Assembly: GCA_030710605.1 (NCBI GenBank)
Contig: CP092868.1
Coordinates: forward strand, 25,574,115-25,638,114
Direction: 5' to 3'
Length of the DNA stretch: 64,000 bases
Source of the DNA: Cordylochernes scorpioides
Taxonomy: Eukaryota; Arthropoda; Arachnida; Pseudoscorpiones; Chernetidae
In this document: piece after piece, positions 1,855 to 60,580 of the stretch
Position numbering within the stretch: position 1 is the stretch's first letter
Layout: each line of letters begins with the position of its first letter
Notes under the pieces: generated by a model
Told to the model about the DNA's origin: nothing
What the model saw: only the letters and a program-made list of their open reading frames with translations
Database searches by the model: none
Made by a program: the position numbers and the translations under genes

Positions 1855-2100
1855 TAAGAATATGAAAAAATAGTACAAATGTGATATTGTACTGGGATAA
1901 GGTGCATAAATTAAGAAAAAGGATTCTCATTATGGGCCAACAGCCCGAAACGCGTCCGTGGTTAGCTTTTCTTGATTAATCAAGAATGGGTATTTGGTCA
2001 ATTCTGGAATAATTAAAAATCAACGAGAATAGTTGATATTTATTCCGATAGATGCCATCAGCAACTTTCAGTTGCACGATAATGAGATGCCTTTTTCTTA
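1855..2100 (+). mobile_element. Hammerhead family A element, ribozyme 5' half lost
   Basis: The block GTACTGGGATAAGGTGCATA at about 1888-1907 and the inverted end AGCAACTTTCAGTTGCACGA near 2060 are shared with copies at 36655, 45735 and 50355. At about 1934-1968 the 3' half of the ribozyme is kept (CAACAGCCC, GAAACGCGTC, CGTGG), but the CTGATGA box is missing. Self-cleavage is therefore not expected. It lies in PEDS1 intron 1, antisense to the gene. Confidence 0.65.
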
Positions 2101-2314
2101 AATAAGATTATATAATGATAAATATAGGAAAAATAGATATAAATAGATAAAGATAATTGATAAATATACATATATATAATATATATATACAAGTCTTCAT
2201 TGGTGGCGCCCACCTCGAGAAAGACTCCGCCACCGGTGGACTGCAAGAGTTCTTTCCCACAGAGTGGGCAGGTCGATAAGACTACAGCATGAAAGATATG
2301 GCTAAACATTTTAG

Positions 2315-9256: not shown

Positions 9257-9581
9257 CTAGCCGAATGACCCGGGCAACGCCCGGGTTTTACCCGATTAAA
9301 TGCTTTTATTCAAATACTATTCGTTACAATTATAAATTGGCGCCGTGGATGTCATTCTTGTATAATATATAAATGAGTTTTAAAAATTGTAAAAAAAAAA
9401 AAAAATGCATCGGCCGGGAATCGAACCCGGGCCGCCCGCGTGGCAGGCGAGCATTTTACCCCTGAACTACCGATGCTTATAAGAAATGGCCATATTTGGG
9501 TATTTATTCCATTCACAAAGGCACACAAACGGTGACAGAATTAAGAATTGATTGATGACTCTGATACTTGTATATTATAGA
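9257..9581 (-). mobile_element. Non-autonomous Helitron carrying a tRNA-Gly-like gene
   Basis: On the minus strand the element begins TCTATAATATACAAG (5' TC) and ends GGCTAG, preceded by the hairpin CCCGGGCGTTGCCCGGG. The flanks are A and T, as expected for Helitron insertion between A and T. It is 325 bp long and has no protein. It carries a complete tRNA-Gly(GCC)-like sequence followed on the same strand by a long T run. Relatives are at 26638, 26995, 30718 and 59890. Confidence 0.8.
9406..9476 (-). tRNA. tRNA-Gly(GCC)-like gene inside a Helitron
   Basis: The acceptor stem GCATCGG/CCGATGC pairs perfectly and is followed by discriminator A. The anticodon loop CTGCCAC gives anticodon GCC. 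The T arm GGGTTCGATTCCC (B box) is perfect. One mismatch is visible in the D stem (GTTC against AAAT, where glycine tRNAs normally have GAAT). A run of T follows, suitable as a Pol III terminator. It may be a transcribable tRNA or only the promoter of a mobile element. Because it is repeated within the same transposon, it should be counted as element-borne. Confidence 0.7.
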
Positions 9582-24309: not shown

Positions 24310-24660
24310 TTAAGACCTTCTTCTTCTTTCTTATCTCCACACTGGATGAAGTAAAAATGCGTCTGCCTTTGTCATTAAGACTGGGAGCACTACTCAGTGG
24401 CAGGCCGACTTAGCTCCAAAAGAAATGGCCGCCTCTGACATGAGGAACAGATGCCATGTGCAGCCGCTCCTAACATGGAGTACAGACTCATCCTGTATCC
24501 CTGGATTAGGAGCCCTTACAGGGTACTATCAGCCAGGCCAGCTGAACCCAGGTTTGTTAGTGAACTTGTTACTGCTCCCCCTCCTCCTTTTTCATCCGGG
24601 CTTGGGACCGCTTGATACCCTAATATGATTGAGTGATAATGATAAGAGAAAGAAGAACCT
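24310..24660 (-). repeat. Dispersed repeat of the GGAGCGGCTG family, near full
   Basis: On the minus strand it runs from GGTCCCAAGCCCGGATGAAA through CTGGCCTGGCTGATAGTACC and GGAGCGGCTGCACATGGCAT to GACAAAGGCAGACGC. The plus-strand copy at 41525-41910 is the most complete. The uninterrupted junction here (CCTCCTTTTTCATCCGGGC) provides the empty-site reference for the insertion at 33991-35658. Confidence 0.75.
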
Positions 24661-25549
24661 CCTATCATACCATTAGGTTTATATTATTAATACAGTAGAA
24701 CTACCTCTTTCTAAAGATTTCTAAAGAAGATTAGTATGGCCCCATCTCAAGGATGACACCTAAAATCATAAAGCGTTCTTTCTAAACAACAAAACCTAGT
24801 TTCAAAGCCAAAGTGTCCTTTGGGGAGAAGTGACTTGGGACCGGCAAAGTCTTTAGTCTTATACAGATTCTCTGAGCCCCAAACTTGATTCAAATACTCT
24901 TTATTTGGTTCAATCTATGAAGTACTTGTCTATATTTAGAAGCTGAACAAGTCTGATATTAAAGTTGGAGGAAGGATTTGATACAAGAAACAAACTATGA
25001 AGAACTACCCAATATCTTTTTAAAAACTTTAAAGAACACAAAGGTATTTTGCTTGATATTGTTTTACCAATTACTCACTAGTAACATAAATAATGTGTTA
25101 TATTTCGATAACCGTGTTGTTACCATGATCAAACAAAATTAATGAATAACAAAAGAATTCACAAGTATCTTTGCTGATTGGATAAAAAAATAACAACAGG
25201 AAAAGTTATGTATAGATACAAAATGGATCTAGAAAAAAAAAGTTGCACTACAATAATTCAACAGATCTTGAAATTTATTTGTGTCTTAAGATATTTTGAA
25301 TTAATTTCAATTGGGAACCATTTACTATTTTTCTGTTTAATTCACTTATGAAATGTGTTCCTATCTCTATTCTCATAAAATACCAAAATGGCTGAAAATT
25401 GAAATGAATCTTTCTCTTAGGAGAGGGGAGGGTGATTTTTTTCCTTTTAAATGATAAGGTACAATTTGGATTATATGATAAAGCACAATTTGGATTATAG
25501 ATTATAATACAAGTAAATAAGACTTAATCCAAATAATTTATTAGTGTGT

Positions 25550-26637: not shown

Positions 26638-26915
26638 CTAGCCGAATGACCCGGGCAACGCCCGGGGTTTACCCGATTAAATGCTTTTATTCAAATACTA
26701 TTCGTTATAATTATAAATTGGCGCCGTGGATGTCATTCTTGTATAATATATAAATGAGTTTTAAAATTTGTAAAAAAAAAAAAAATGCATTGGCAGGGAA
26801 TCGAACCCGGGGCGCCCGCGTGGCAGGCGAGCATTCTACCACTGAACCAAAAGCAAACAGTGACAGAATTAAGAAAGAATTGGGCATGACGCTGATAACT
26901 GTATATATTAATAAT
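26638..26915 (-). mobile_element. Helitron with tRNA-Gly-like insert, 5' end lost
   Basis: The 3' end (CTAG as 26641-26638 on minus) and hairpin match the 9257 copy. The tRNA-Gly-like segment (about 26785-26850) keeps anticodon GCC and the B box but loses the 5' acceptor strand. The left-hand TC terminus is replaced by a family B flank (AATCCAAATTGTACC). Confidence 0.7.
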
Positions 26916-26994: not shown

Positions 26995-27174
26995 ACAGGA
27001 AAAGCACATATATTTTAATAATATAAATGAGTTTTAAAAATTGTAAAAAAAAAAAAATGCATCGGCCGGGAATCGAACCCGGGGCGCCCGCGTGGCAGGC
27101 GAGCATTCTAACACTGAACCAAAAGCAAACGGTGACAGAATTAAGAACGCATGACGATGATAACTGTATATAGA
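26995..27174 (-). mobile_element. Helitron with tRNA-Gly-like insert, 3' end lost
   Basis: The TC end (TCTATATACAGTTATC) is at 27174 on the minus strand. The tRNA-like part at about 27057-27122 has intact anticodon and T arms but no 5' acceptor strand. The GC hairpin end is missing. It abuts a family B hammerhead element. Confidence 0.65.
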
Positions 27175-30717: not shown

Positions 30718-31165
30718 AGAAGAATGACCCGGCTTCACCTGAGAAATCCCCCGAGTGAAGTATCCTTCATACTGAAAGTACATCAATAATAAATAGTAGA
30801 AGTGCCATAGAATAGCAATACAGAAGAAACACATAAACTACAGGAAAAAAAGTGTGTAATGGCAAAAATTGTATTATATTAGTGTTTAGGTATTTGATTT
30901 AATTATTTTTTGCAATCCATTTAGTTGTTTCAAAATTAATATAGTTTAAATAAATGAGTTTTAAAAATTGTAAAAAAAAAAAAATCCATCGGCCGGGAAT
31001 CGAACCCGGGCCGCCCACGTGGCAGGAGAGCATTCTTGCCATTGAACTACCGATGCTTATAAGAAATGGCCATATTTGGGTATTTATTCCATTCACAAAA
31101 GCAAACGGTGACAGAATTGATTAAGAATTGATTGATGACTCTGATACTTGTATATTTTTATGTCC
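30718..31165 (-). mobile_element. Composite Helitron with tRNA-Gly-like gene
   Basis: The 3' terminus on minus is a variant (CCGGGTCATTCTTCTAGT reading outward), and the inner body differs from the 9257 element until about 30940. From there the two match through the tRNA-like gene and the 5' segment AATTCTTAATCAATTC. It looks like a chimera of two Helitron lineages. Confidence 0.55.
30986..31056 (-). tRNA. tRNA-Gly(GCC)-like sequence, likely pseudogene
   Basis: The anticodon loop CTGCCAC and the T arm GGGTTCGATTCCC are kept, and here the D stem GTTC/GAAT is correct. The last acceptor pair is broken (G against G) and one anticodon-stem pair is a T-T mismatch. It lies inside a Helitron. Confidence 0.55.
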
Positions 31166-33664: not shown

Positions 33665-33990
33665 ACTGTCTTCTTCTTTCTTATCTCCATCAATCATATT
33701 AGGGTATCAAGTTTGTAAAGCTTCAAACCATCATGACTGGGTGAAGTATAATGCAACTGCCTTTGTCATTAAGACTGGGAGCACTACTTAGTGGCAGGCC
33801 GACTTGGCTCCAAAAGAAATGGCCACCTCTGACATGAGGAATAGACGCCATATGCAGCCGCTCCTAACATGGAGTACAAACACTGCTCATCCTGTATCCC
33901 TGGATTAGGAGCCCTTACAGGGTACTATCAGCCAGGCCAGCTGAGCCCAGGTTTTTTAGTGAGCTTGTTACTGCTCCCCCTCCTTCTTTT
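33665..33990 (-). repeat. Dispersed repeat of the GGAGCGGCTG family, interrupted by a Helitron-like insertion
   Basis: It matches 24310-24600 in the same orientation up to CTGCTCCCCCTCCTTCTTTT at 33990. The remaining end (CATCCGGGCT) resumes at about 35669 after the inserted element. Confidence 0.75.
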
Positions 33991-35658
33991 GACGTGACAA
34001 CGTCTTAAATTAGGTTGCGGCTGGGAGTCACTTATGAAAAAGTGTAACGCCCGGTAACGTTACGATGAGTCATCGAACGAGAGTGCTGCGCGCGCAGCGC
34101 TAGAGAATTAGGCGCATTGAATCGGCGCATGCTTGTCTCTGTCTTTGTCTTTCTCGAACGTTCTTGGCGTTGGAAAAACAAGAAAGCGTCATAATACAAG
34201 TTCACACGTGTGGTTAAAGTATCGTCAGCTGTGTCTGTAGTGAAAATGTGGAGTGCTTAGATTCGTCATTTACAACAACTACAACAATAAAGGTAAATAA
34301 TTGTACACTGATATTTCATTATCGTAAACTATGATTGATTGATTAATTGTTAGATTGACACAAAAGTTGAGAAACTGAGTTTATAGGTTATGTCATACTA
34401 TTGATAAATGTTGATAGTGTTAAGTAAATTATTAGTTTAAAATTAATTAATTAATTAATTATTATTTTACAAATTTTAAATAGTTTCAAATTTATTTAGC
34501 AAAAATTTGAACCTTCGATCTGAATAAGTGTTTTGATTTTCAAATTGATTCTTTAAAATTAAAAATTCATCCATTCAATTTCAAATGTTCAACAGGAATC
34601 ACCACTCTCAAAACAATGGAAACGGTGCCTTCAACTTCCAGTACTTCAATGGAGACGGAGGATATCGTGCCGTCAACGTCTGCAGTACCTTTCGTTGTTC
34701 CACACACCACCTTTACCGCCAGAACGAATGCTCAGCGACAACGTGAGTACAGACTACGAAAAGCATTGACCAGAACTCCTGAACAAGTAAGAGCCTTTGC
34801 AAAAGCGGCTGCGGAGAGGCAACGCAGGTTCAAGCTACGTAAATCTGCTAACATAGCCCTCACCAGCGGTACGTCAGAGTCACCTGCTTCAACGTCTTGT
34901 TCTGTGGTGGAGAGAACAAGCGTTCCTGTCGTGGCGGAGAGAACGAGCGTTCCCCTAACTAACGCTCAACGGCAACGTGCATTCCGACAACGTAGAGCAG
35001 CATCTTCTCGGACTGATGTACAACCGACTACTTCTTCAAGCCAAACAGCAATACAACTGGAACAATCCACCTGATATACCAAATGGTCATCGTCAATACG
35101 GAGATTTCAATCTACTTTCCTGGACAACGATTTTGGCCATGCTTGCTCGGTTTGTGACAGATTGTGGTTCAAGAATGACCTTAAAACCATCACTGCACTA
35201 CAACTGAAGGTAATCTCGGATTGGTACGTTAAGGAAAATCGGCAGCTACGCAAGGAGGATTATACAAAGTCTTGCAACACCTGTAGACAATCACTGAATA
35301 AGCGTAAGCTTCCTACTCTCGCAAAGGTCAACGGCTTCTCATATCCTGACATACCTCCAGGTCTACCGCCTCTGGATCCTATCAGTGAACGTTTGGTCTC
35401 ACCGCGCCTTCCATTTATGCAAGTCCTATCATCGTCCTATCCTCAACAAAATCACTCAAATAGGAATTAGTTAAGTTTAAGTTTACATGTACAATGTTTT
35501 AGTAAACAAAATATATTTCTATAGTTAAAATTTGTGCAATTCTTATTTTCATTCAATTCCTTGTTCCTATTGTGCAATTTAATTATATTCATATCAATAA
35601 ATATTCTACCGTTGTCACGTAAAATCTTCGCCCGTAAAACCGACTTTACAGGCAACCA
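33991..35658 (+). mobile_element. Helitron/Helentron-type insertion of 1.67 kb encoding only a DUF6570-like protein
   Basis: The uninterrupted paralogue at 24570-24600 fixes the boundaries: the host repeat is cut inside its T run. The inserted block begins GACGTGACAACGTCTTAAAT and ends GACTTTACAGGCAACCA next to T residues. A 620-bp AT-rich leader precedes the ORF; a 190-bp AT-rich trailer follows it. T-run targeting is more like Helentrons than classic A|T Helitrons. No Rep or helicase domain is present, so it is a deletion derivative. Confidence 0.65.
34616..35470 (+). pseudogene. Helitron-associated N-terminal protein with DUF6570-like domain, one in-frame stop
   Basis: One frame is open for 152 residues from ATG at 34616, meets TGA at 35072-35074, and continues in the same frame to TAG at about 35470. 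The first part is Ser/Thr-rich, with three basic repeats of the type NAQRQREYRLRKA, RQRRFKLRK and NAQRQRAFRQRR that are common at the N-terminus of Helitron proteins. After the stop come FGHACSVCDRLWFKNDLK (two Cys), a C-x2-C at CNTCRQ, and the signature ISERLVSPRLPFMQV, typical of the DUF6570 region that precedes Rep in Helitron polyproteins. The downstream helitron_like_N, Rep and PIF1-type helicase regions are absent. Family assignment is from memory of motifs. The single stop could be a mutation or a sequencing error. Confidence 0.75.
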
Positions 35659-36654: not shown

Positions 36655-36868
36655 ATATTGTGAAAAAATAGTACAAATGTGATATTGTACTGGGATAAGT
36701 TGCATATATTAAGAAAAAGGCATCTCCTTATCGTGCAACTGAAAGTTGCTGATGGCTTGCGCCATCTATCGGAATAATTAAAAATCAACGAGAATAGTTG
36801 ATATTTATTCCGATAGATGGCGCAAGCCATCAGCAACTTTCAGTTGCACGATAAGGAGATGCCTTTTT
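36655..36868. mobile_element. Family A palindrome without ribozyme
   Basis: Perfect or near-perfect inverted arms of about 75 bp (GGCATCTCCTTATCGTGCAA ... TTGCACGATAAGGAGATGCC) meet at TGATATTTATTCCGATAG. The outer block GTACTGGGATAAGTTGCATA is shared with the hammerhead-bearing copies, but the ribozyme segment is absent. Confidence 0.75.
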
Positions 36869-36869
36869 T

Positions 36870-37894
36870 TTATATATTGCGCAATTGAATGAATAGAGGT
36901 ACACAGAGCTATTTCAGCAGGTTTTATTATTAAATTAAGGCTCGAAAATTGAGTGATATCTTTCCTACACCTTATCAAAAGAAAAAAAAAATATATATAT
37001 GTAGTTACAAAATTTACATAACATCGAACTATTAAATATATTTACATATATTTAATAACTAAACAATTACTTTGATTTCACTCTAAACAAATTTCACAAC
37101 AATAGTAATTAATTTTGTTTGATTTTTGGAATCTATTTTGATGAAGATCCCTTCTCCTCACCAATTTAAAAATGCCTTTTTCGTCTGCTTTTTAAATGAA
37201 GCAAGTGCAAGACATCTTATTATTCACATTTATCTGAAAATAAGCTCTATGAATGATTCCCTTAGTTTAGAAAAATATTCTTAAATTCAATACATAATTA
37301 TTTGTTTATATATGTATATTGTTTAATATTAAAGCTACCATATTAGAAAATGTATGCACAAAATTGATAGTACTAACTACAAAGAAAAACAATTTTTTGT
37401 TAAGTGTCAACAAACTTTAAATCCTCATCATATTTTTTTTTTATCATTATTTTAAATAAAATGAATAAATTTAAAAGTATAAAATGTTAATTCTGTAATA
37501 TAGTAGTAACTTTTCATTTTATATAGGATGCATTTATTTGTTTAACAAAACAAACATTCGTTTGACAGTTTGCAAGAAAAATATTGTTCCAAACTATTTA
37601 ATTAACAAGTGAATATGTAGCTTTCTGGTTTGTTTTCATTCATCTTCTAATAAATAATTACAATAGAAATAAGTGTCCTGCAAACTTCTCTCAATATTAA
37701 CCGTAAAACTTATAAAAATTTAAAGTTTTTTTTTAATGCAATATAATTGTCATATATACTTGAGCTTTATTTATATTGAATATATTATTAGATCTAAATG
37801 TTATTTTAAAAACAGTATCGCTTTACTTAAAAAGTGTTCTTATTTTAATATAAAAATATATTTTTAAAATAGTGTATCGAAAACAAGAACTTAC
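36870..37894. other. AT-rich start of PEDS1 intron 1
   Basis: About 1 kb of unique, very AT-rich sequence follows the donor site. No repeats of the families seen elsewhere are recognised here, so this is probably the oldest, least disturbed part of the intron. Confidence 0.5.
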
Positions 37895-41524: not shown

Positions 41525-41910
41525 CATAAAATTTCACAACTCTGCCTTTGCCTGTCCCAAGCCCAGATGAAAAAGGAGGAGGGGGAGCAGTAACAAGCTC
41601 ACTAAAAAACCTGGGCTCAGCTGGCCAGGCTGATAGTACCCTGTATGGGCTTCTGATCCAGGGATACAGGATGAGTCTGTACTCCATGTTAGGAGCGGCT
41701 GCACATGGTGTCTGTTCTTCATGTCAGGGGCGGCCATTTCTTTTGGAGCTAAGTCGGCTTGCCACTGAGTAGTGCTCCCAGTCTTAATGACAAAGGCAGA
41801 CGCATTCTACTTTACCCAGACATGATGGTTGTCAAACAGACACCATCAAGGGTCACAACTTGATACCCTAATATGATTGAGTGGAGATAAGAAAGAAGAA
41901 GACTTTAACG
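41525..41910 (+). repeat. Dispersed repeat of the GGAGCGGCTG family, most complete copy
   Basis: It runs from TGCCTGTCCCAAGCCCAGAT to ATATGATTGAGTGGAGATAA plus (AAG)n. The end is the same tail as the LINE copies at 19375-19600 and 50985-51161, so this may be a non-autonomous element using the same LINE machinery. Open frames across it have no known domain. Confidence 0.75.
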
Positions 41911-43405: not shown

Positions 43406-44064
43406 CACTCATGGACAAAACTTATGAAAGTGGAAAGTCTTTGATGTCGCCTTTCATCCATTTTTTAAAGCCCCAATTTAGGAGACAATAGGGAGGAAAT
43501 TTTGTTCACACTTGGTTATCTCGTGTGTTTTCAATAAAGGTCACTGTAATATATTTCAGAGTTATTGTCTGAATCCCGATATACATGCTAAAAGGTACAA
43601 CTTTCTTAAGTTTTGTTCACACTTGGTTGTCTCATGTGTCTTCAATAAAGGTCACTGTAATATCTTTCAGAGTTATTGTCTGAATCCCGATATACATGCT
43701 AAAAGGTACAACTTCCTTAAGTTTTGTCCACACTTGGTTATCTCATGTGTCTTCAATAAAGGTCACTGTAATATCTTCCAGAGTTATTGTCTGAATCCCG
43801 ATATACATGGTAAAAGGTACAACTTCCTTAAGTTTTGTTCATACTTGGTTATCTCGTGTGTCTTCAATAAAGGTCACTGTAATATCTTTCAGAATTATTG
43901 TCTGAATCTCGATAAACATGCTAAAAGGTACAACTTCCTTAAGTTTTGTCCACACTTGGTTATCTCATGTGTCTTCAATAAAGGTCACTGTAATATCTTT
44001 CAGAGTTATTGTCTGAATCCCGATATACATGCTGAAATGTACAACTTTCTTTTGTCCATGAGTA
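43406..44064. mobile_element. MITE of the 111-bp family with five internal units, intact ends
   Basis: The left end CACTCATGGACAAAACTTAT and the right end TTTTGTCCATGAGT are inverted, with TA on each side. Five 111-bp units lie in tandem in the opposite orientation to those at 20045-21148. The 187-residue open frame (43512-44075) is made of repeated 37-residue units and is not considered a gene. Confidence 0.9.
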
Positions 44065-44069
44065 TATGT

Positions 44070-45190
44070 AAATGAAGTTTCCCCATACTACACACACAAA
44101 AAAAGGAAACTAGAGAAGAATTTGAGGAGACGACTAGAAGTTTTATTTACAGACACTAGCTAGTTAGTCCTGTACAGACATCCCAGTATAGAGGTTTTGG
44201 TAGCAAAAAATGCCATACAAAATGTCCACACACACATACGTAGTAGATATAGTCACTTCATATATATATATACAGTTTTGGAACAGCTAGTCACGTTCCC
44301 AAGCTATATCTGCCACGAGTGAGAAAAAGGAGGAGGGTTGGTGGTGGTGGTGCATTCACAAAAAAAAATTTTTTTTTTTCAAAAACAAAACAAAAAAAAA
44401 AATTATATATATTCTAAGCTCGGCAACTAAAAAAAAAAAAAAACAACATTTGATACGGAGAGGCAAGATAATAAGATAGAGGGATTGAGGATAAAGGCAA
44501 GGGTAGAAGGAATACAATATATTAAAGGAGAAGCGGGGGGAAGTTATATATATATATATAACATTTGGGTGTTTTCTTTTTAAAAAGGACGTATTTGCAT
44601 CTTGTTACACATATGTAATTAAGTGTGCAGTTAGGTGAGAGATTTAAAAAAAAAAAAAGTTTCTTTCCAGCCACAAAAATTACACACAAAAAAAAAATGC
44701 AAGAGAAATGGCGATATATATATATAAAATTAAAAAGAGAACCACATTTAGTAGAAAGGGGAGTTTTATGCGGAAGTAGGAGAGAGGATAGAAAAAAAAA
44801 ATCATATATAAGAATATATCATATATATTATGACTAGTTATATATATATTTTTTTGTTTCACGCAAAAAGTCAACAATGACTTTTTTAATATATATATAA
44901 TTTTTTAAAATTATTATTTTCTTCTTTAAAATTGAAAAAAAAAAAAAATTTTTTTTTTTCAATATGGTCAAATTTCCAAGAATTTTTTTTTTAAGAACAA
45001 AAATTTTTTTGTAGAGAGATGTACTAGAAATTTCTTGGTTAAATTGTGCAATAAATTATGTTTCTATATATATTATTAGATGCTTGGGATCAAAATTATT
45101 TATTAATATTAAAAAGTAATAAACAATCAAGAAAAAAAAAAAAAGGTAATGAAATCAAATTGAGGAGGAAAAAAAAAAAAGGCATCTCCG
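44070..45190. repeat. Low-complexity AT-rich region
   Basis: Dense poly-A/poly-T runs and (TA)n, with (GGT)n near 44336. A minus-strand AATAAA (44147-44142) precedes 44100, so a 3' UTR of an upstream minus-strand transcript is conceivable, but no coding sequence supports it. Confidence 0.6.
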
Positions 45191-45399
45191 GGTTATATGC
45201 AAATGAAATTTGTAAATTTCATGCAGAATTTCAGTAACCGTATGGTCAGCCTTATCAGATTTAAGGGTAATTTAGTCTCAACCAGCTTCAACATACCCAT
45301 CCAATGTCTTTTTATTTTTAATTAATTTCACACATTCATAGGAGCTTCATTCAGACTTAATAAACAAGAAGTCTGTATATCGAAGAGTCAAGGAGTTGA

Positions 45400-45570
45400 C
45401 AATATTAGTTAACGGGGCTTCTGTCACATTTATAAGTGCAAAGTCAAACTGCTTTTAACATGTGTAGACATGTGGTGCACCTACAGTAAAAGCAGTCGCC
45501 AACTTCTACCCACCATGATTATCATGGCCTGTACCACATGTACTAGGGATAATAAAAATAAAAAATAATA
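45400..45570 (+). repeat. SINE body copy, head missing
   Basis: Contains AACATGTGTAGACATGTGGT and TACCACATGTACTAGGGATA, with an (A/T)-rich tail. Confidence 0.75.
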
Positions 45571-45734
45571 TTAGTACGGTAACGTTACCTAGAACATTTT
45601 TAGATTGTATTGTTACTCTATGAACCCACTGTAATGAATAAAAAATACCCCTAAATAGAAAAATTATATATTAATTTGAAAAAAACAAACAAACTAAAAG
45701 CCTTCATTTTTGAAAAAAAATTGCATATATATAT

Positions 45735-46100
45735 ATATGTGAAAAAATAGCACAAATGTAACATTGTACTGGGATAAGGTGCATAAATTAAGTAAAAGGC
45801 ATCTCCTTATCGTGCAACTGAAAGTTGCTGATGGCTGGCGCCATCCATTCATGATTTTTCAGGATGCCTTAATGACCAATTTTTTGGTCGTTGAGGTACA
45901 GCTTGCACCACGCTGATGAGGGCCAACAGCCCGAAACGCGTCCGTGGTTAGCTTTTCTTGATTAATCAAGAATGGGTATTTGGCCAATTCTGGAATAATT
46001 AAAAATCAACGAGAATAGTTTATATTTATTCCGATAGATGGCGCCAGCCATCAGCAACTTTCAGTTGCATGATAAGGAGATGCCTTTTACTTAATATATA
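45735..46100 (+). mobile_element. Hammerhead family A element with an intact ribozyme
   Basis: The left end has GTACTGGGATAAGGTGCATA and GGCATCTCCTTATCGTGCAA. The right end is the inverted AACTTTCAGTTGCATGATAA plus GGAGATGCC. Between them are a short unique part, the ribozyme (45907-45948), and a downstream tail (GATTAATCAAGAATGGGTAT, ATCAACGAGAATAG). It has no ORF. The layout is a ribozyme followed by a conserved tail, repeated as partial inverted copies, reminiscent of Penelope-like element termini. Confidence 0.75.
45907..45948 (+). ncRNA. Hammerhead ribozyme, family A, type I with minimal stem III
   Basis: Stem I ACCACG (45907-45912) pairs with CGTGGT (45943-45948), extended by AGCT/AGCT outside a small internal loop. 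CTGATGA is at 45913-45919. Stem II GGGC/GCCC with loop CAACA spans 45920-45932. GAA is at 45933-45935. Stem III is A-C/G-T with loop GC (45936-45941), and the cleavage base is C45942. All universally conserved core bases are present. The ACGCGT palindrome would allow a six-pair dimeric stem III. Confidence 0.8.
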
Positions 46101-46494
46101 TATATATAAACTAATCTATTCTTTAAAAAAAACACACACACAAAAAAAAAGACTACTCAAAAAATGACTTGGGGGGAAAAAAAAAACTTTTTTTACATTC
46201 TTTCCTCTTAAAATGCTTGTCCAGACACCTATAAAAAAATTAAGTCAATTTAAAAATTTCAATAATCAAAAAGAATAATAAATTGAAAAGTAGGCAGCTA
46301 GGATAAATTATTAGAAAATCTGTCTCAAGCTTTACAAGCTTGATACCTTAGTCTGATTTGAGTGTAGATAAGAAAGAAGAAGATTAGAAAATCTTATTTG
46401 AATTTTAACAGAATCTGAAAAAGAGAGAAATATAATGTATATATAAGAAATTGATAAAGAGGTAAGATTAATCTCTTCGGAATATTTGTAAAAA
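46100..46494. other. AT-rich sequence before the gap
   Basis: Poly-A and (TA) runs. A LINE-tail fragment (CTCAAGCTTTACAAGCTTGA, 46324-46343) is present. Nothing else recognised. Confidence 0.4.
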
Positions 46495-46594
46495 NNNNNN
46501 NNNNNNNNNNNNNNNNNNNNNNNNNNNNNNNNNNNNNNNNNNNNNNNNNNNNNNNNNNNNNNNNNNNNNNNNNNNNNNNNNNNNNNNNNNNNNN
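46495..46594. other. Assembly gap (100 N)
   Basis: Exactly 100 N; unknown true length. Confidence 1.
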
Positions 46595-46789
46595 TAGAAT
46601 ATTCAGTGTAAAGGGTCTCCATGATGGTACTGTTGCCGTTGGCTGATTATCCTGGATGCTCCCGGCCTTAGACCTTCTAGGAGGTCAGATTTGGCTCCCC
46701 AAATGATGTTACAGCTGTTTCCCTTAACCTTTAAAGTTGTACCCTATGGTCTGTTCTTGAACCAATTGGAAGCAATCATAAGCCTGTAT

Positions 46790-47130
46790 GAAAGCCCGGA
46801 TGAAAAAGGAGGAAGGGGAGCAGTAACAAGCTCACTAAAAAACCTGGGCTCAGCTGGCCCAACTGATAGTACCATGTAAGGGCTCCTGATCCAGGGATAC
46901 AGGATGAGCAGTGTTTGTACTCCATGTTAGGAGCGACTGTACAAAGCACCTGTTCCTCATGTCAGATGCGGCCATTTCATATTGGAGCTAAGTCGGCCTG
47001 CCACTCAGTAGTGCTCCCAGTCTTAATGACAAAGGCAGATGCATTCTACTTCATCCAATCATTATGGAGCTCTACAAGCTTGATACCTTAATATGATTGA
47101 GTGATAATGATAAGAGAAATAAGAACCTCC
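46790..47130 (+). repeat. Dispersed repeat of the GGAGCGGCTG family
   Basis: It matches 41525-41910 from AAGCCCGGATGAAAAAGGAG to the end at TGATTGAGTG, and is followed at 47160-47400 by a CAGTAGAAC-type MITE remnant, an arrangement also seen at 24660-24840. Confidence 0.7.
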
Positions 47131-47404
47131 TATCATACCATTAGGTTTATATTATTAATACAGTAGAACTACGTCTTTCTAAAGATTTCTAAAGAAGATT
47201 AGCATGGCCCTATCTCAAGGATGACACCTAAAATCATAAAGCATTCTTTCTAAATGACAGCACCTAATTGCAAATCCAAAGTGTCCTTTGGGTAGAAGTG
47301 TCCTCTACCCAGAGAGCATCTAAATAGTAATATGATAATATCAACAATGAAAACTATCCTTTGTAGAGAGGTGTCTTCTAGTGGGAGTGACCTTTCATAG
47401 AGTA

Positions 47405-47915
47405 TGTTCTAATAAAAGAAAATAAGACCTAATCCAAATAATTTATTAGTGTGTGACGTTTCGGCAACAACATTGTCACCATTATCAGACAAAAGAATAA
47501 ATGAGAAAAAATATTACAGCAAGTTCTTATATAGTCCTGTTATCAAGTGTTTAAACAAGATAACAGATAAGGAAAATAGTTTTTTAAGTCAACTTGAAAT
47601 ATTCTTCTTAGAATTAAAAGTGGATTTTTTAAAAAAATATAATTAAAGGCATATCTGTAAATATCATTTATATTTCCCCTTTCTTCCATTCTATTAATTG
47701 AAGCACATGTCTTTTGGATGAAAAAGGCTTCTTTGAACTGTGTTTAAACACTTGATAACAGTACTATATAAGAACTTGCCGTAATATTTTTTCTCATTTA
47801 TTCTTTTGTCTGATGATGGTGACAATGTTGTTGCCGAAAGGTCACACACTAATAAATTATTTGGATTAGGTCTTATTTTCTTTTATTTTAATCTATAATC
47901 CAAATTGTGCTTTAT
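47405..47915. mobile_element. Hammerhead family B inverted dimer
   Basis: Long arms (TAAGACCTAATCCAAATAAT ... ATTATTTGGATTAGGTCTTA) enclose about 400 bp. The left core (minus) has CTGATAA, in which the essential G8 is replaced by A. The right core (plus) has CTGATGA (47810-47816) and GAAAGGTC (47836-47843). One arm is therefore likely dead and the other possibly active. Confidence 0.7.
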
Positions 47916-48121
47916 CAAAATGCTGCGATGGAAAAATAATAGTATCACAGTAAGGACAGTAGAAGTTTGATTTATTTGTGAAAGAAACGCTCACGTTTTA
48001 TAATGTTTTCATTTATTATAGACAGCACATTATTGCTTTGTATTAATTGCATATATGTCTTAAATGACTCCCTTACATACTGTCTTTCCCTTTTTCCATA
48101 TTACTCAATTCAGAAATCTTC

Positions 48122-48430
48122 GATGGGGGTCGGTGGAAGGATGGTCTAAACCGTGGGTTTTCGACCGATACAACCCTGATTCGATTCCCTCATTGGGCAC
48201 TTTTTTTCTTGTTAAAAAAAAAAATGCTCCAATGGCTCCCGATTCTTGCAAAAGTTCAACCCCACCAGCGAGTGCAAGTAACCAAACGGGGGCTCTGGCA
48301 TATTTTGTAAGTGCAAAGTCGAACTGCTTTTCACATGTGTAGACATGTGGTGCACTTACAGTATAAGCAGTCGCCTACTTCACCATGATTATCATGGCCT
48401 ATACCACGTGTACTAGGGATAAGCAAAAAA
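48122..48430 (+). repeat. tRNA-derived SINE, full copy
   Basis: Head GATGGGGGTCGGTGGAAGGA, B box GATTCGATTCCC, body and (A)n end as in the consensus. One of the best preserved copies. Confidence 0.85.
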
Positions 48431-48856
48431 GAAATCTTCGACGTAACAACAAAAAAAGAGAAGAAATCTTTTATCTAATCTTCCAGCTCCTAAAAAAAGA
48501 AAGGTATCACATAGATAGTGTTAACAGATCGTTGCAGAGACACGAGTAAGTGCCACACTATCGGAGTGTGGTGTCGCTAAGGGATCGAAACCTTCCATTT
48601 ACAAATCAATCATTTCCCCACCAATCAATTCAAGGCTGCCGATATTGACAAATTTATGTCCCATTGGTGTCCCCCCCTCAAACTGTTTCCTTTCTTTCTT
48701 CTATCTAATTGACAGTTTATAGAAATATTAAACTAATTTAGAAACTAAGTGCTATTGATTTATTGGGGTATTTTTTTTTTTTTTTGATAAGGCACAATTT
48801 GGATTATAGATTATAAACACAGGGTAATAAGACCAAATCCAAATAAATAAATAGTG

Positions 48857-48897
48857 TGTGACGTTTCGGTAACAGCGTTGTTACCATCTTCAGACAA
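48857..48897 (-). ncRNA. Hammerhead ribozyme motif, family B
   Basis: CTGAAGA, stem II GGTAAC/GTTACC (six pairs), GAAACGTC, stem I TGT/ACA. The core is complete. Confidence 0.6.
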
Positions 48898-49171
48898 AAG
48901 TACTGAATGATCAAGTTTACCACAGCATGTTTTTAAATAGTTACTGTTATCAAGTGTGTAAACAAGATATCTTACAAAATTATCTTGTTTACACACTTGT
49001 TACCATCTTCAGACAAAAGTACTGAATGAGAAATTTTACCACAGCATTTTTTAAATAGTTACTGTTATAAAGTGTGTAAAAAAGATAATTTTGTAAGATA
49101 TCTTGTTTACACACTTGATAACAGTAACTATTTAAAAACATGCTGTGATAAAATTTCTCATTCAGTACTTT

Positions 49172-49212
49172 TGTCTGAAGATGGTAACAACGCTGTTACC
49201 GAAACGTCACAC
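49172..49212 (+). ncRNA. Hammerhead ribozyme motif, family B
   Basis: CTGAAGA at 49175-49181, GGTAAC/GTTACC stem II, GAAACGTC at 49201-49208, then ACA. The same sequence as the opposite arm, so the whole element could fold back on itself. Confidence 0.6.
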
Positions 49213-49292
49213 ACTATTTATTTATTTGGATTTGGTCTTATTACCTTGTGTTTATAATCTATAATCCAAATTGGGCCTTATCAATGTTTCTT

Positions 49293-49550
49293 TTTTTTGT
49301 ATTTAATAACATATTGATGAGACAAAGGCGGGGATATGATACTCAGATGGTTTATTTGGTGCAGTGCTGGACTTGTGGTCCGGTTCAGGAAGGTCATGAT
49401 GTTCGGGGTCTCGCCGGGCCGGTTGTAGGAGGGGATGGAGCTGTAGCTAAGGCAGGACATGTTAAACAATTCCGTCACGATGTATTCCGATCGAGAGACT
49501 AAAGATAACGGCACGTTGTATTTAAAGCATTGCCGCAAAACGGTGGTCAA
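49293..49550 (-). CDS. Unexplained open frame of about 86-89 residues, GC-richer than surroundings
   Basis: This minus-strand frame opens with ATG at 49550 and contains VSRSEYIVTELFNMSCLSYS, then SYNRPGETPNIMTFLNRTT. Codons are visibly GC-rich at third positions compared with all neighbours, and the interval lies between two inverted-repeat elements without belonging to either. There are possible N-glycosylation sites at NMS and NRT. No family was recognised, and no splice sites are clear. It could be a host exon, a captured exon fragment, or chance. Confidence 0.3.
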
Positions 49551-49671
49551 TGGTCAAATACAATTTATACCAGTCATCTCTGTGGTGCCGTTTCTCTGAT
49601 TAATAAAAATAAACAAAAATGATAATAATTTGTACTGACCCTGTGGTCGGCTACTTGTTGACACACAACAA

Positions 49672-49965
49672 TATATAGATTTATATTGGATCAAAATATT
49701 ATTTATTTTACCAATATTTCAGTTGGCTGAATGCCAACCTTTATCAAGGTGTTATAACATTTTAAAGTGTGTCAACAACAAACTCAGCGCCACATAATGT
49801 CAACAGCATTAAGTTTTTAAAAATATTTTTAAAACTTAATGCTGTTGACGTTATGTGGCGCTGAGTTTGTTGTTGACACACTTTAAAATGTTATAACACC
49901 TTGGCGTTCAGCCAACTGAAATATTGGTAAAATAAATGTTTTTTTGATCCAATATATGCCTTTTT
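49672..49965. mobile_element. Fold-back element with hammerhead-like stem II remnant
   Basis: Near-perfect inverted arms of about 135 bp meet at TTTTTAAAAATATTTTTAAA near 49825. On the minus strand of the left arm, TTGATAA, a seven-pair stem (GGTTGGC/GCCAACT) and GAAATATTGG mimic the order of a hammerhead core with mutated boxes. The right arm has a deletion in the same place. Confidence 0.7.
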
Positions 49966-50079
49966 ATTTAAAGATTTATCTATGGATTGCTCTATTTTCA
50001 ATATAGATTTATAATTATGAAAGTATAATTAAAAGAAAATTTGATGAAGGAAGAGTTTCATTTTTTTAATCATGATAAA

Positions 50080-50165
50080 AAGTTTTCAGGTGTAACAACC
50101 TTTTGACAGGTATTTATAGTATCATAGTGTTATACCTGTTGAAGGGTTGTTACCCCTGGAAGTTT
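50080..50165. repeat. Short inverted repeat
   Basis: GGTGTAACAACC and its partner GGGTTGTTACCCC flank a short centre with TATTTATAGTATCATAG. It may be a small fold-back element. Confidence 0.5.
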
Positions 50166-50354
50166 GTATTGTTGTGATTAAAAAATAAACTTGTTTCCCT
50201 CAGTGTGTTCATGTTCAACAATTTAAATAATTCTAAGAGAACTATAAGAATATAAAAGAAAATAAGACCTAATCCAAATAATTTATTAGTGTGTTATAGA
50301 CAAATGTGTTTTTGACAAATTGTGTTACACACAAACACACTAATTAACTATAAG

Positions 50355-50822
50355 GATATGAAAAAAAAAAATAGCACAAATGTGATATTATACTGGGATA
50401 AGGTGCATAAATTATGAAAAAGCTATCTCCTTATCGTGAAACTGAAAGCTGCTGATGGCTTGTACTATTTATCGGAATAAATATCAACTATTCTCGTTTA
50501 TTTTTAATTATTCCAGAATTGGCCAAATACCCATTCTTGATTAATCAAGAAAAGCTAACCACATACGCGTTTCGGGCTGTTAGCCCTATTTTTTAAGATG
50601 TCTGAATGTCCAGTTTTTTTGGTCGTTGAGGTACAGCTTGCACCACGCTGATGAGGGCTAACAGCCTGAAACGCGTACGTGGTTAGCTTTTCTTGATTAA
50701 TCAAGAATGGGTATTTGGCCAATTCTGGAATAATTAAAAATCAACGAGAATAGTTGATATTTATTCCGATAGATGGTGCAAGCCATCAGCAACTTTCAGT
50801 TGCATGATAAGGAGATGCCTTT
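50355..50822. mobile_element. Hammerhead family A inverted dimer
   Basis: The left half on the minus strand (50530-50600) contains the ribozyme 3' half (CTAACAGCCC, GAAACGCGTA) but no CTGATGA. The right half on the plus strand contains a complete core (50642-50683) and the tail to 50822. The outer ends are inverted (CTATCTCCTTATCGTGAAAC ... CATGATAAGGAGATGCC). Confidence 0.8.
50642..50683 (+). ncRNA. Hammerhead ribozyme, family A
   Basis: Stem I ACCACG/CGTGGT is perfect. CTGATGA is at 50648-50654. Stem II GGGC/GCCT has one G-U pair, with loop TAACA. GAA is at 50668-50670, stem III AC/GT with loop GC, and the cleavage base is A50677 (GUA triplet, usually slower than GUC). The changes from the 45907 copy preserve pairing. 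Confidence 0.75.
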
Positions 50823-50847
50823 TTTTATTAGAACTAGAAGAGTCGTG

Positions 50848-51205
50848 ATAAGGTGTACAATTTGGATTATAGATTATACACAAGGTAATAAGACCAAATA
50901 AATAAATAGTTTGTACTTCATTCACTACTTTCGTCTGAAGATGGTTACACCGAAACGTCACACTATTTATTTGGATTTGGTCTTCTTCTTTCTATCTCCA
51001 CTCAATCACACTAAGGTATCAAGCTTGTAAAGCTTGTTGATGGTGTCTGCCGGGGAAGAGTAGAGCTCATCAATGAATGAGTCAATACAGTCAATAATGT
51101 GTTTTGGGGTTGCAGGTTGAGAATTACACTTAGTACATAGTGGGAAAACCTTGCAACCATTGGATTTGGTCTTATTACCTTGTGTTTATAATCCAAATTG
51201 TGTCT
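50848..51205. mobile_element. Hammerhead family B element interrupted by a LINE copy
   Basis: The plus-strand core has CTGAAGA (50935-50941) and GAAACGTC (50952-50959), with an unusually short stem II (GGT/ACC). The right flank is split: TTGGATTTGGTCTT occurs at 50971-50984 and again at 51162-51175 around an inserted LINE end. Confidence 0.75.
50985..51161 (-). mobile_element. 5'-truncated LINE insertion with 14-bp target duplication
   Basis: It is flanked by the duplicated TTGGATTTGGTCTT. On minus it runs from GGTTGCAAGGTTTTCCCACT through the knuckle region and GACTGTATTGACTCATTCAT to the 3' end TGATTGAGTGGAGATAGAAA plus GAAG. This fixes the 3' boundary of the LINE family also seen at 19375 and 29945. 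Confidence 0.85.
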
Positions 51206-51314
51206 TACAGTTCTAATTAAAGAGAACTAAAAGAGTCAAAAACCTTCTCTAATTTAACAACCCAAAGAAATGGGGTTTCCTATTAAATTAAGGTGCATTT
51301 TTTAAATTGTAATC

Positions 51315-51660
51315 TGATAAAGCACAATTTGGATTATAGATTATAATAAAGGATATAAGACCTAATCCAAATAATTTATTAGCGTGTGACGTTTCGGCAA
51401 CAACATTGTCACCATCATCAGACAAAAGAATAAATGAGAAAAAATATTACAGCAAGTTCTTATATAGTCCTGTTATCAAGTGTTTATACAAGATAACAGA
51501 TAAGGAAAATAGTTTTTTAAGTCAACTTGGACTATATAAGAACTTGCTGTAATATTTTTCTCATTTATTCTTTTGTCTGATGATGGTGACAATGTTGTTG
51601 GCGAAATGTCACACACTAAAAAATTATTTGGATTAGGTCTTATTTTCTTTTATTATAATT
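51315..51660. mobile_element. Hammerhead family B inverted dimer
   Basis: The left core (minus) has CTGATGA (51421-51415) and GAAACGTC (51395-51388), both intact. The right core (plus) has CTGATGA (51577-51583) and GAAATGTC (51603-51610). The stem II arms are GGTGAC/GTTGCC on the left and GGTGAC/GTTGGC on the right. Ends as in 47405-47915, but the centre is shorter. Confidence 0.75.
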
Positions 51661-51674
51661 GTAATCTGTTAAAG

Positions 51675-51972
51675 AAGGTAACAATAGGGTCAGTGGAAGG
51701 GTGGTCTAAACCGTTGGTTTTCGATCGTTAAAACCCGGGATCAAATCCTGTATTGGACACTTTTTTTCAAATTAAAAAAATGCTTCAATGGGGCCCCTTC
51801 ACCAGTGATGCAAGTAACCAAACGGGGCTATGGCACATTTGTAAGTTAAAAAATCGAACTGCCTTTCACATGTGTAGACATGTGGTGCACTTACAGTAAA
51901 AGCAGTCGCTAACTACCCACCATGATTAACATAGACTTTACTACATGTACTAGGGATAATAATAAAAAAAAA
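51675..51972 (+). repeat. tRNA-derived SINE, full copy
   Basis: Head GGGTCAGTGGAAGGGTGGTC with a degraded B box (GGGATCAAATCCT); body and tail as in the family. Confidence 0.8.
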
Positions 51973-52316
51973 AGTAGGTAACTTGTTTGATTCAGTTGGA
52001 TAATAGAAAGTATTGAGGTATAGCTGGTTAATTTTTATTTCATTTTATTTCGACTTGAAGTGCTATGACAATTGACAATTAAAAACGGTTTATTGAAATC
52101 TAGTCAATGGTCAAGAGAGAGTTTACAGAGTTTAAATAGTAGATAAAATATATACACCAGAAGAAGCCTTCTCCGAAGGTACGTATCAGGAGCTTAGAAC
52201 CATCTTGAGTTCAGACAGGCCCTCGCGAGTTATGCAATCCTTGTCCCGAGCATGCTTAGAGCACTATGTCCCACTAGGGACACTTGCACTTTAAAGGTAA
52301 ACTAAACATAGAAAGT

Positions 52317-53219: not shown

Positions 53220-53575
53220 TAAATATTCCATATCTCCGCCTTTGCCGGTCCCAAGCCCGAATGAAAAAGGAGCAGTAACAAGCTCACTAAAATACCTGGG
53301 CTCAGCTGGCTTGGCTTATAGTACCCTGTAAGGGCTCCTAATCCAGGGATACAGGATGAGCAGTGTTTGTACTCCATGTTAGGAGCGGCTGCACATGGCG
53401 TCTGTTCCTCATGTCAGAGGCGGCCATTTCTTCTGGAGCTAAGTCAGCCTGCCACTGAGTAGTGCTCCCAGTCTTAATGACAAAGGCAGACACATTCTAC
53501 TCACCCAGTTATGATATCAAACTTTACAAGCTTGATACCCTAATGTGGTTGAGTGGAGATAAGAAAGAAGAAGAC
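53220..53575 (+). repeat. Dispersed repeat of the GGAGCGGCTG family
   Basis: From CGCCTTTGCCGGTCCCAAGC to GGTTGAGTGGAGATAAGAAA plus (AAG)n. Same 3' tail as the LINE copies. Confidence 0.75.
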
Positions 53576-57300: not shown

Positions 57301-57429
57301 TTAGCGGCGCCATGTATAGTTGCGAGCAGTCGAAGTGGAAGGTGACAAAGACGTACATAAGGAATCAAGAACTCGTCAAGAGTCAACCAGAGAGAAAAGA
57401 GAAATTCCGAGGTCCACCAAGAGTCCGAC

Positions 57430-59345
57430 TGACGTAGAGATGGCGTCAGAGATCTGTCCCAACATGGAGACGGCGTCAGAGATCTGCCCCAATGTGGATC
57501 TGTCCCAACATGGAGACGGCGTCAGAGATCTGCCCCAATGTGGATCTGTCCCAACGTGGAGACGGCGTCAGAGATCTGTCCCAACGTGGAGATGGCGTCA
57601 GAGATCTGTCCCAACATGGAGACGGCGTCAGAGATCTGTCCCAACGTGGAGTCGGCGTCAGAGATCTGTCCCCGTGGCGGCGGCGTCAAAGATCTGTCCC
57701 AACGTGGAGACGGCGTCAGAGATCTGTCCCAACGTGGAGATGGCGTCAGAGATCTGTCCCAACATGGAGACGGCGTCAGAGATCTGTCCCAACGTGGAGA
57801 CGGCGTCAGAGATCTGTCCCAACGTGGAGACGGCGTCAGAGATCTGTCCCAACGTGGAGACGGCGTCAGAGATCTGTCCCAACGTAGAGACGGCGTCAGA
57901 GATCTGTCCCAACGTGGAGACGGCGTCAGAGATCTGTCCCAACGTGGAGACGGCGTCAGAGATCTGTCCCAACGTAGAGACGGCGTCAGAGATCTGTCCC
58001 AACGTGGAGACGGCGTCAGAGATCTGTCCCAACGTGGAGACGGCGTCAGAGATCTGTCCCAACGTAGAGACGGCGTCAGAGATCTGTCCCAACGTGGAGA
58101 CGGCGTCAGAGATCTGTCCCAACGTGGAGACGGCGTCAGAGATCTGTCCCAACGTGGAGACGGCGTCAGAGATCTGTCCCAACGTAGAGACGGCGTCAGA
58201 GATCTGTCCCAACGTGGAGACGGCGTCAGAGATCTGTCCCAACGTGGAGACGGCGTCAGAGATCTGTCCCAACGTAGAGACGGCGTCAGAGATCTGTCCC
58301 AACGTGGAGACGGCGTCAGAGATCTGTCCCAACGTGGAGACGGCGTCAGAGATCTGTCCCAACGTGGAGACGGCGTCAGAGATCTGTCCCAACGTTGAGA
58401 CGGCGTCAGAGATCTGTCCCAACGTGGAAACGGCGTCAGAGATCTGTCCCAACGTTGAGACGGCGTCAGAGATCTGTCCCAACGTTGAGACGGCGTCAGA
58501 AATCTGTCCCAACGTGGAGACGGCGTCAGAGATCTGTCCCAACGTGGAGACGGCGTCAGAGATCTGTCCCAACGTTGAGACGGCGTCAGAGATCTGTCCC
58601 AACGTGGAGACGGCGTCAGAGATCTGTCCCAACGTGGAGACGGCGTCAGAGATCTGTCCCAACGTTGAGACGGCGTCAGAGATCTGTCCCAACGTGGAGA
58701 CGGCGTCAGAGATCTGTCCCAACGTGGAGACGGCGTCAGAGATCTGTCCCAACGTTGAGACGGCGTCAGAGATCTGTCCCAACGTGGAAACGGCGTCAGA
58801 GATCTGTCCCAACGTGGAGACGGCGTCAGAGATCTGTCCCAACGTGGAGTCGGCGTCAGAGATCTGTCCCAACGTGGAAACGGCGTCAGAGATCTGTCCC
58901 AACGTGGAGTCGGCGTCAGAGATCTGTCCCCGTGGCGGCGGCGTCAAAGATCTGTCCCAACGTGGAGACGGCGTCAGAGATCTGTCCCAACGTGGAGACG
59001 GCGTCAGAGATCTGTCCCAACGTGGAGACGGCGTCAGAGATCTGTCCCAACGTGGAGACGGCGTCAGAGATCTGTCCCCGTGGCGGCGGCGTCAGAGATC
59101 TGTCCCAACGTGGAGATGGCGTCAGAGATCTGTCCCCGTGGCGGCGGCGTCAAAGATCTGTCCCAACGTGGAGACGGCGTCAGAGATCTGTCCCAACGTG
59201 GAGACGGCGTCAGAGATCTGTCCCAACGTGGAGACGGCGTCAGAGATCTGTCCCAACGTAGAGACGGCGTCAGAGATCTGCTCTAACGTGGAGACTGCGT
59301 CAGAGATCTGTCCCAACGTGGAGCTTGCGTCAGAGATCTGCCCCA
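57430..59345. repeat. 30-bp minisatellite, about 64 units, with higher-order structure
   Basis: The unit is GATCTGTCCC AACGTGGAGA CGGCGTCAGA. Variants AACGTAGAGA and then AACGTTGAGA recur mostly every third unit (90 bp). A few units are replaced by CCGTGGCGGCGGCGTC. Since 30 is a multiple of three and the unit lacks stops in several frames, four or more frames on both strands stay open, the longest 691 codons (57320-59395, first ATG at 57440, repeat ETASEICPNV). The lead-in (57320-57440) and the C-terminal tail are short and unremarkable. Treated as a satellite, not a gene. Confidence 0.9.
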
Positions 59346-59395
59346 ATTATAGTCGAATCCAGGGGATGATACTCTTCGTCCCGAGCGGGCAGTGA

Positions 59396-60288: not shown

Positions 60289-60529
60289 ATTATCTCCTGC
60301 GCGCCGCGCAGCAAAATTTCCACATATATATTAAAAACAAACTCCAGGAGCCTGGGTTTTACCTTTATGTTACTACTAGTATTAAAAACAAAATAGGCAT
60401 TTCCTGATCTCTCACATGAGCTTTCTAGATGGTAGAGCGCCATCTAGTGAAACAAAAATCAACTCAACGTTGATTTAGCTTGTTCCAAAGATATTTGGCT
60501 AACCCAATTTCTTGACAAATCAAGAAAAT

Positions 60530-60580
60530 CCAACCACATACGCTTTTCGGGCTGTTGACACTCGTCTATATATATACCCT
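60530..60580 (-). repeat. Degraded family A hammerhead
   Basis: Minus strand: CAACAGCCCGAAAAGCGTAT then GTGGTTGGATT. The first box is damaged (GACGAG without CT) and GAAAC has become GAAAA. Confidence 0.6.

Follow-up and report, generated by a model that had tools for sequence, protein, structure and literature searches.

A short non-coding repeat with a minimal type I hammerhead and probable Penelope-like insertion

Hammerheads are already known from Penelope-type elements, and the repeat analysed here is a new example of that kind. In the portion of PMC3846280 available to us, the Penelope layout consists of a direct and an inverted pLTR, with an optional 31-bp tail on one inverted pLTR; the cases it presents have target duplications of 8-10 bp, some other inserts lack them, and the pLTR contains palindromes. 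According to the accessible part of a study of Anolis Penelope (PMC11167929), the purified element protein cuts and extends both strands, with a preference for an ATT motif within AT-rich DNA, while synthesis starts from two adjacent internal sites, the interval between which corresponds to the tail, on an RNA that carries a hammerhead. The same text reports that this hammerhead cuts only when element protein is added. A review, as far as its available text goes, describes most minimal Penelope-type hammerheads as dispersed in non-coding regions, adds that cleavage of the minimal type I forms in these elements may take place in dimers, and treats the function of the Penelope hammerhead as unknown (PMC7761336). 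The other described relatives are the retrozymes, small non-coding units of ~170-400 nt and low GC which in metazoans occur as tandem dimers to multimers (available part of PMC7229834).

To describe the locus we use "the window" for the whole stretch of DNA that was analysed, 64 kb in length. BLAST and profile searches detect five copies of one dispersed repeat in it (Table 1). Four of them share a common layout, in which a tail of ~50 nt, present at the left only, is followed by an inverted 3' end of variable length and then by a forward unit. The inverted part measures ~20 nt in copy 1863, 60 nt in copy A and ~175 nt in copy B, and in copy 36661 it makes up a single large hairpin together with the forward part. 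At the right ends of these four copies the tail profile matches only the first 38-48 of its 91 positions, that is, the shared 3' end. In copy A the two arms (45783-45848 and 46034-46099) make up an inverted repeat of 66 nt with 95% complementarity, whose outermost A/T bases lie outside the 3' end. A weak match to the 3' end of the element (E 0.035) was also observed on the minus strand at 45172-45242, perhaps an older relative.

Table 1. Coordinates of the repeat copies, of the hammerhead motif and of the associated features in the window
Feature	Position	Strand	Basis or remark
Copy A: complete hammerhead; tail, inverted 3' end, forward unit	~45740-46093	+	
Copy A, left target-duplication candidate, (AT)6, low complexity	45727-45738	.	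GC-matched control: 8 of 1000 random flanks score at least as high
Copy A, tail, 49 nt, on left inverted piece only	45740-45788	-	common to four of five copies
Copy A, inverted 3' end	45789-45848	-	inverted repeat search
Copy A, forward unit, 244 nt, 41% GC (5' part, hammerhead, structured 3' region)	45849-46092	+	repeat comparison
Copy A, right target-duplication candidate, (AT)6	46094-46105	.	flank comparison
Minimal type I hammerhead with outer AGCU/AGCU helix	45900-45953	+	letters, descriptor scan, Rfam HH9; predicted cut after C45942
Outer helix strands, AGCT and AGCT	45900-45903, 45950-45953	+	letters
Stem I, ACCACG (5' strand) and CGTGGT (3' strand)	45907-45912, 45943-45948	+	letters
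Hammerhead core, CTGATGA, GAA and C17	45913-45919, 45933-45935, 45942	+	letters
Stem II, GGGC and GCCC	45920-45923, 45929-45932	+	letters
Self-complementary ACGCGT at stem III position	45936-45941	+	letters; ACGCGU self-duplex computed at -7.5 kcal/mol
Perfect 18-bp palindrome TTCTTGATTAATCAAGAA, directly 3' of hammerhead	45955-45972	+	alignment, letters
Copy B: tail, inverted unit of ~175 nt broken at stem II start, forward unit with hammerhead	50364-50825	+	no target duplication found
Copy B, second complete hammerhead, in forward unit	50635-50688	+	base 17 is A; predicted cut after A50677
Copy 1863: tail, inverted end of ~20 nt, forward unit from stem II base G10.1 (1934)	1863-2101	+	hammerhead without 5' half; exact 9-bp duplication TAAATAAGA
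Copy 36661: short; tail and hairpin of two inverted 3' ends	36661-36872	+	hammerhead absent; duplication of 8 bp, ATATATTG
Diverged copy, 70% over 180 columns; match starts at or near stem II	60390-60561	-	BLAST, profile; no tail match

Reading of the letters and the descriptor described below identify in copy A the core of a type I hammerhead (CUGAUGA, GAA, A15.1-U16.1 and H17), with six plus four outer pairs, four pairs in stem II, and stem I as the open end. The preliminary description of this DNA had placed the core bases and the GUC triplet, the six-pair stem I, the outer AGCT/AGCT helix, the four-pair stem II and the cut after C45942 correctly. Its interval, 45907-45948, contains the motif bases but falls short in extent, as the motif reaches from 45900 to 45953 and the element covers the whole of copy A. 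Forward units A and B agree in 223 of the 236 positions aligned. Within the motif their core is the same, and the three changes found (C to U in loop II, G-C to G-U in a stem II pair, C to A at base 17) are all tolerated under hammerhead rules. The hammerhead is complete in these two copies, the other three lacking either its 5' half or all of it. In the alignment, palindrome TTCTTGATTAATCAAGAA is identical in the four close units that contain it, and the diverged copy keeps its 7-base arms.

The descriptor required the full core, five pairs in stem I and four in stem II with G-U allowed, A15.1/U16.1 and H17, and was run on both strands of the window and, as a control, on 3162 dinucleotide-preserving shuffles of it from which Ns had been removed. 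Two matches were found in the 64-kb window (45913 and 50648) versus six in all 3162 shuffled windows together, and a looser descriptor returned the same two matches in the window and 15 in the 3162 shuffles. The preliminary description had proposed a search with Infernal and the Rfam models, the outcome of which is weakly favourable. At gathering thresholds no hammerhead family was detected in the whole window, the sole matches being four to tRNA; under permissive settings RF02275 (Hammerhead_HH9) scored 26.5 bits (gathering score 52), with an E value of 1.7e-4 for the 451 bases searched and 0.024 for 64 kb. The match covers positions 1-77 of this model and takes in the core, stems I and II and, beyond a small internal loop, the outer helix, but the score is well under the threshold and stem III is shorter here.

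Other RNA-like matches were observed in the window. Among the tRNA-Gly matches, those at 9406-9476 and 30985-31056 are better than a tRNA-Gly(GCC)-like pair with damaged acceptor stems (26786-26854 and 27058-27126). U6 snRNA-like sequences at 24684-24783 (37.0 bits) and 47152-47255 (39.8 bits; gathering 44) are possibly U6-derived retroposed repeats. Sub-threshold matches to the type-P1 twister ribozyme (gathering 67.2) were found at 41533-41587 (32.6 bits, E 0.0038) and 53227-53278 (22.9 bits, E 2.3), and further partial copies of the twister-like repeat at 24547-24610, 33946-33977 and 46792-46848. These may be degenerate twisters from RTE-type elements, an association that the available text of PMC7761336 mentions. 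A separate dispersed repeat with CTGATGATGGTGACAATGTTGTTGCCGAAACGTCACAC-like boxes (25586, 25622, 27333, 47810, 51421, 51577 and 53744) contains CTGATGA and GAAA, and none of its copies passes the hammerhead descriptor.

Beyond the window, four pattern scans returned no match in viral contigs, and no phage record matched the pattern. A generic hammerhead pattern matched 10 prokaryote contigs. Since reading of all 10 flanks by eye showed at most three stem I pairs in a row in any of them, we take these matches to be due to chance; the ~20 chance matches expected in the prokaryote collection are a rough, uncomputed estimate. These scans of viral, prokaryote and phage sequences thus recovered no relatives in other genomes, a result that counts against our preferred explanation.

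The point at which the motif departs from a canonical hammerhead is stem III. Two pairs within ACGCGT would leave a hairpin loop of 2 nt and the usual minimum is three, so that the monomer is in effect without this stem. The preliminary description had proposed a two-pair stem III too short to be stable alone: the shortness stands, the feasibility of the two pairs does not, because of the loop that they would need. In the fold prediction, the energy goes up from -17.6 to -11.7 kcal/mol when A15.1-U16.1 is closed, and stem III in its canonical form is not found in the monomer. The predicted minimum of the monomer also differs from the catalytic fold without stem III, which lies 1.2 kcal/mol above it in copy A (-17.6 vs -18.8) and 1.3 kcal/mol above it in copy B (-15.7 vs -17.0). 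Judged from its letters, the motif is a genuine type I hammerhead, which we call minimal and not canonical, the label first given to it, because the monomer has no workable stem III and the score is under the Rfam cut-off.

Since ACGCGU pairs with itself, stem III could come from a second copy. The dimer contact that had been suggested for this hexamer is thus possible, given its self-complementarity and the computed energy of the duplex (Table 1). The cofold of two copies has a predicted energy of -43.4 kcal/mol, compared with twice -18.8 for the monomers, an optimum that is not necessarily the active double hammerhead and is no proof of dimerisation. On these models, cleavage probably needs either a second copy or a protein.

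It is possible, if somewhat short of an even chance, that the hammerhead is a catalytic relic, inherited in truncated copies and no longer cleaving, a state that is compatible with our preferred explanation. The small number of complete motifs and a score under every Rfam cut-off point in this direction, as do, in the accessible text of PMC11167929, the Anolis hammerhead mutants, which were without effect on insertion in vitro, and the lack of RNA ends found at the cut. The core, however, is unchanged between the two complete copies, two being too few for a selection test.

We consider it likely that a short non-coding retroelement with the insertion mode of Penelope-like elements carries the motif as a minimal type I hammerhead. 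Most of the argument is carried by the other copies, the inverted structure, the tail and the target duplications, none of which figured in the preliminary description, and it is this layout that supports the Penelope link proposed there. Inverted pLTR-like pieces with a tail on one of them are found in four of the five copies, and the hammerhead lies within the repeat. The features that the repeat shares with Penelope-like elements are the minimal hammerhead of type I, the inverted pLTR-like pieces, a one-sided tail, short AT-rich duplications and palindromes. It differs from them in its tail, of 49 nt as against the 30-40 nt given in the published text available to us, and in that no reverse transcriptase ORF was found among the ORFs searched here. 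Further, in the corresponding part of PMC11167929, Anolis synthesis starts 111-118 nt into an ORF that begins at stem II, whereas in our repeat stem II lies ~174 nt from the proximal end.

The inverted arms raise the alternative of a MITE-like DNA transposon that acquired a hammerhead by chance or through a nested insertion, in which case the 66-nt inverted repeats flanking the unit in copy A would be its ends. These repeats, however, are not terminal, as the left one is flanked externally by the tail in the four copies with the layout; arm length ranges from ~20 to 175 nt, and duplication length is not fixed (8, 9 and 12 bp). Neither inverted repeats at the very ends of all copies nor a target duplication of constant size was therefore found, and we rejected a DNA transposon, which we regard as highly improbable, on the position of the tail and the variable arms.

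AT-rich target duplications of 8-12 bp were detected in three of the four copies tested (1863, 36661 and A, but not B), as in Penelope-like elements. The strongest single case is copy 1863, with the exact 9-bp TAAATAAGA. When 1000 GC-matched random flanks were generated per copy, the observed scores were reached by 9, 28 and 8 of them for the three copies. In the cross control, one mismatched pair, the left flank of 36661 with the right flank of A, did as well as a true pair and even surpassed it, scoring 9 against 8 for the true 36661 pair; other cross pairs scored 0-7. Because of this mismatched pair, the AT-rich duplications are weak evidence when taken alone. The absence of a duplication from copy B and the nature of that of copy A, an (AT)6 within AT-rich DNA, speak against the Penelope reading.

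Retrozymes, also brought up in the preliminary description, offer a second alternative, namely an animal non-LTR retrozyme whose small unit is bounded by hammerhead cuts and spreads through circular RNA. The repeat resembles metazoan retrozymes, as presented in the available part of PMC7229834, in being non-coding, in its type I hammerhead and in the length and GC content of its unit (Table 1), but it differs from them in arrangement and in helix III. Tandem copies were looked for in the window, and in a separate check of 44000-52000, and none were found, on which ground the retrozyme was rejected; a stable helix III is reported for most invertebrate retrozyme hammerheads in the portion of PMC7761336 available to us, and the monomer here is without one. 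In addition, by BLAST and reading of the letters, none of the five copies ends at the predicted cut, 45943. We therefore hold a retrozyme to be unlikely.

Between 45913 and 46090 the forward unit has stops in all three forward frames, which bears out the earlier statement that no protein is encoded, and the element can be at most a non-autonomous derivative. No Penelope reverse transcriptase or GIY-YIG endonuclease was detected by Pfam in the 8 ORFs searched among the 25 of at least 110 aa in the window, and we do not class the element as an autonomous Penelope element. The coding-like sequences observed elsewhere in the window are an ORF at 35075-35470 with a match to DUF6570, a domain of Helitron proteins, preceded by an ORF (34511-35074) without a Pfam match; a Lipid_desat match at 1216-1626 (gene name PEDS1); and a long repetitive stretch at 57320-59395, open in several frames on both strands, a coding-like minisatellite. 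With its Lipid_desat match, U6-like sequences and tRNA-Gly genes, the window has an animal-like appearance.

If the repeat inserts like Penelope-like elements, its copies could have arisen as follows. The element would be transcribed, and its RNA would fold into the hammerhead and be cut after C45942, with stem III most likely supplied by pairing of ACGCGU with a second copy, or with help from an element protein. A Penelope-type reverse transcriptase/endonuclease encoded elsewhere would cut AT-rich DNA on both strands, and one RNA would be copied inwards from both ends, on one side from the distal site, including the tail, and on the other from the proximal site, without it. Where the two cDNAs met, a tail, an inverted 3' end and a forward unit would result. 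Priming of both strands on a single RNA would be expected to leave a one-sided tail and an inverted end of variable length.

The inner limits of the forward and inverted units bear on which part of the RNA is copied. In copy 1863 the first base of the forward unit is also the first of stem II, and in copy B the inverted unit ends at the same base, G10.1, or one base further, as base 50587 fits both sides of the junction. The BLAST match of the diverged copy begins ~5 nt upstream of the stem II start, the forward units of A and B begin near 45849-45854, and that of 36661 begins within the 3' hairpin. These positions rest on BLAST and on reading of the letters, the profile, which starts at 45919, being unable to place the breaks itself. 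With so few copies, the breaks at stem II may be a coincidence. According to the accessible text of PMC11167929, the Anolis Penelope ORF starts at the same place. It is conceivable, although quite improbable in our estimation, that the RNA which is reverse-transcribed has a fixed 5' boundary where stem II starts.

The compact family described here makes a Penelope insertion signature readable from several copies in one window. If the boundary at stem II were true, the template RNA would start, or the enzyme would stop, at a point 23 nt upstream of where the hammerhead cuts. The RNA copied would then lack the catalytic strand, and the hammerhead, instead of defining the template, would have read-through RNA as its substrate. 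Should the break at stem II hold genome-wide, the question of which RNA is copied would become directly testable.
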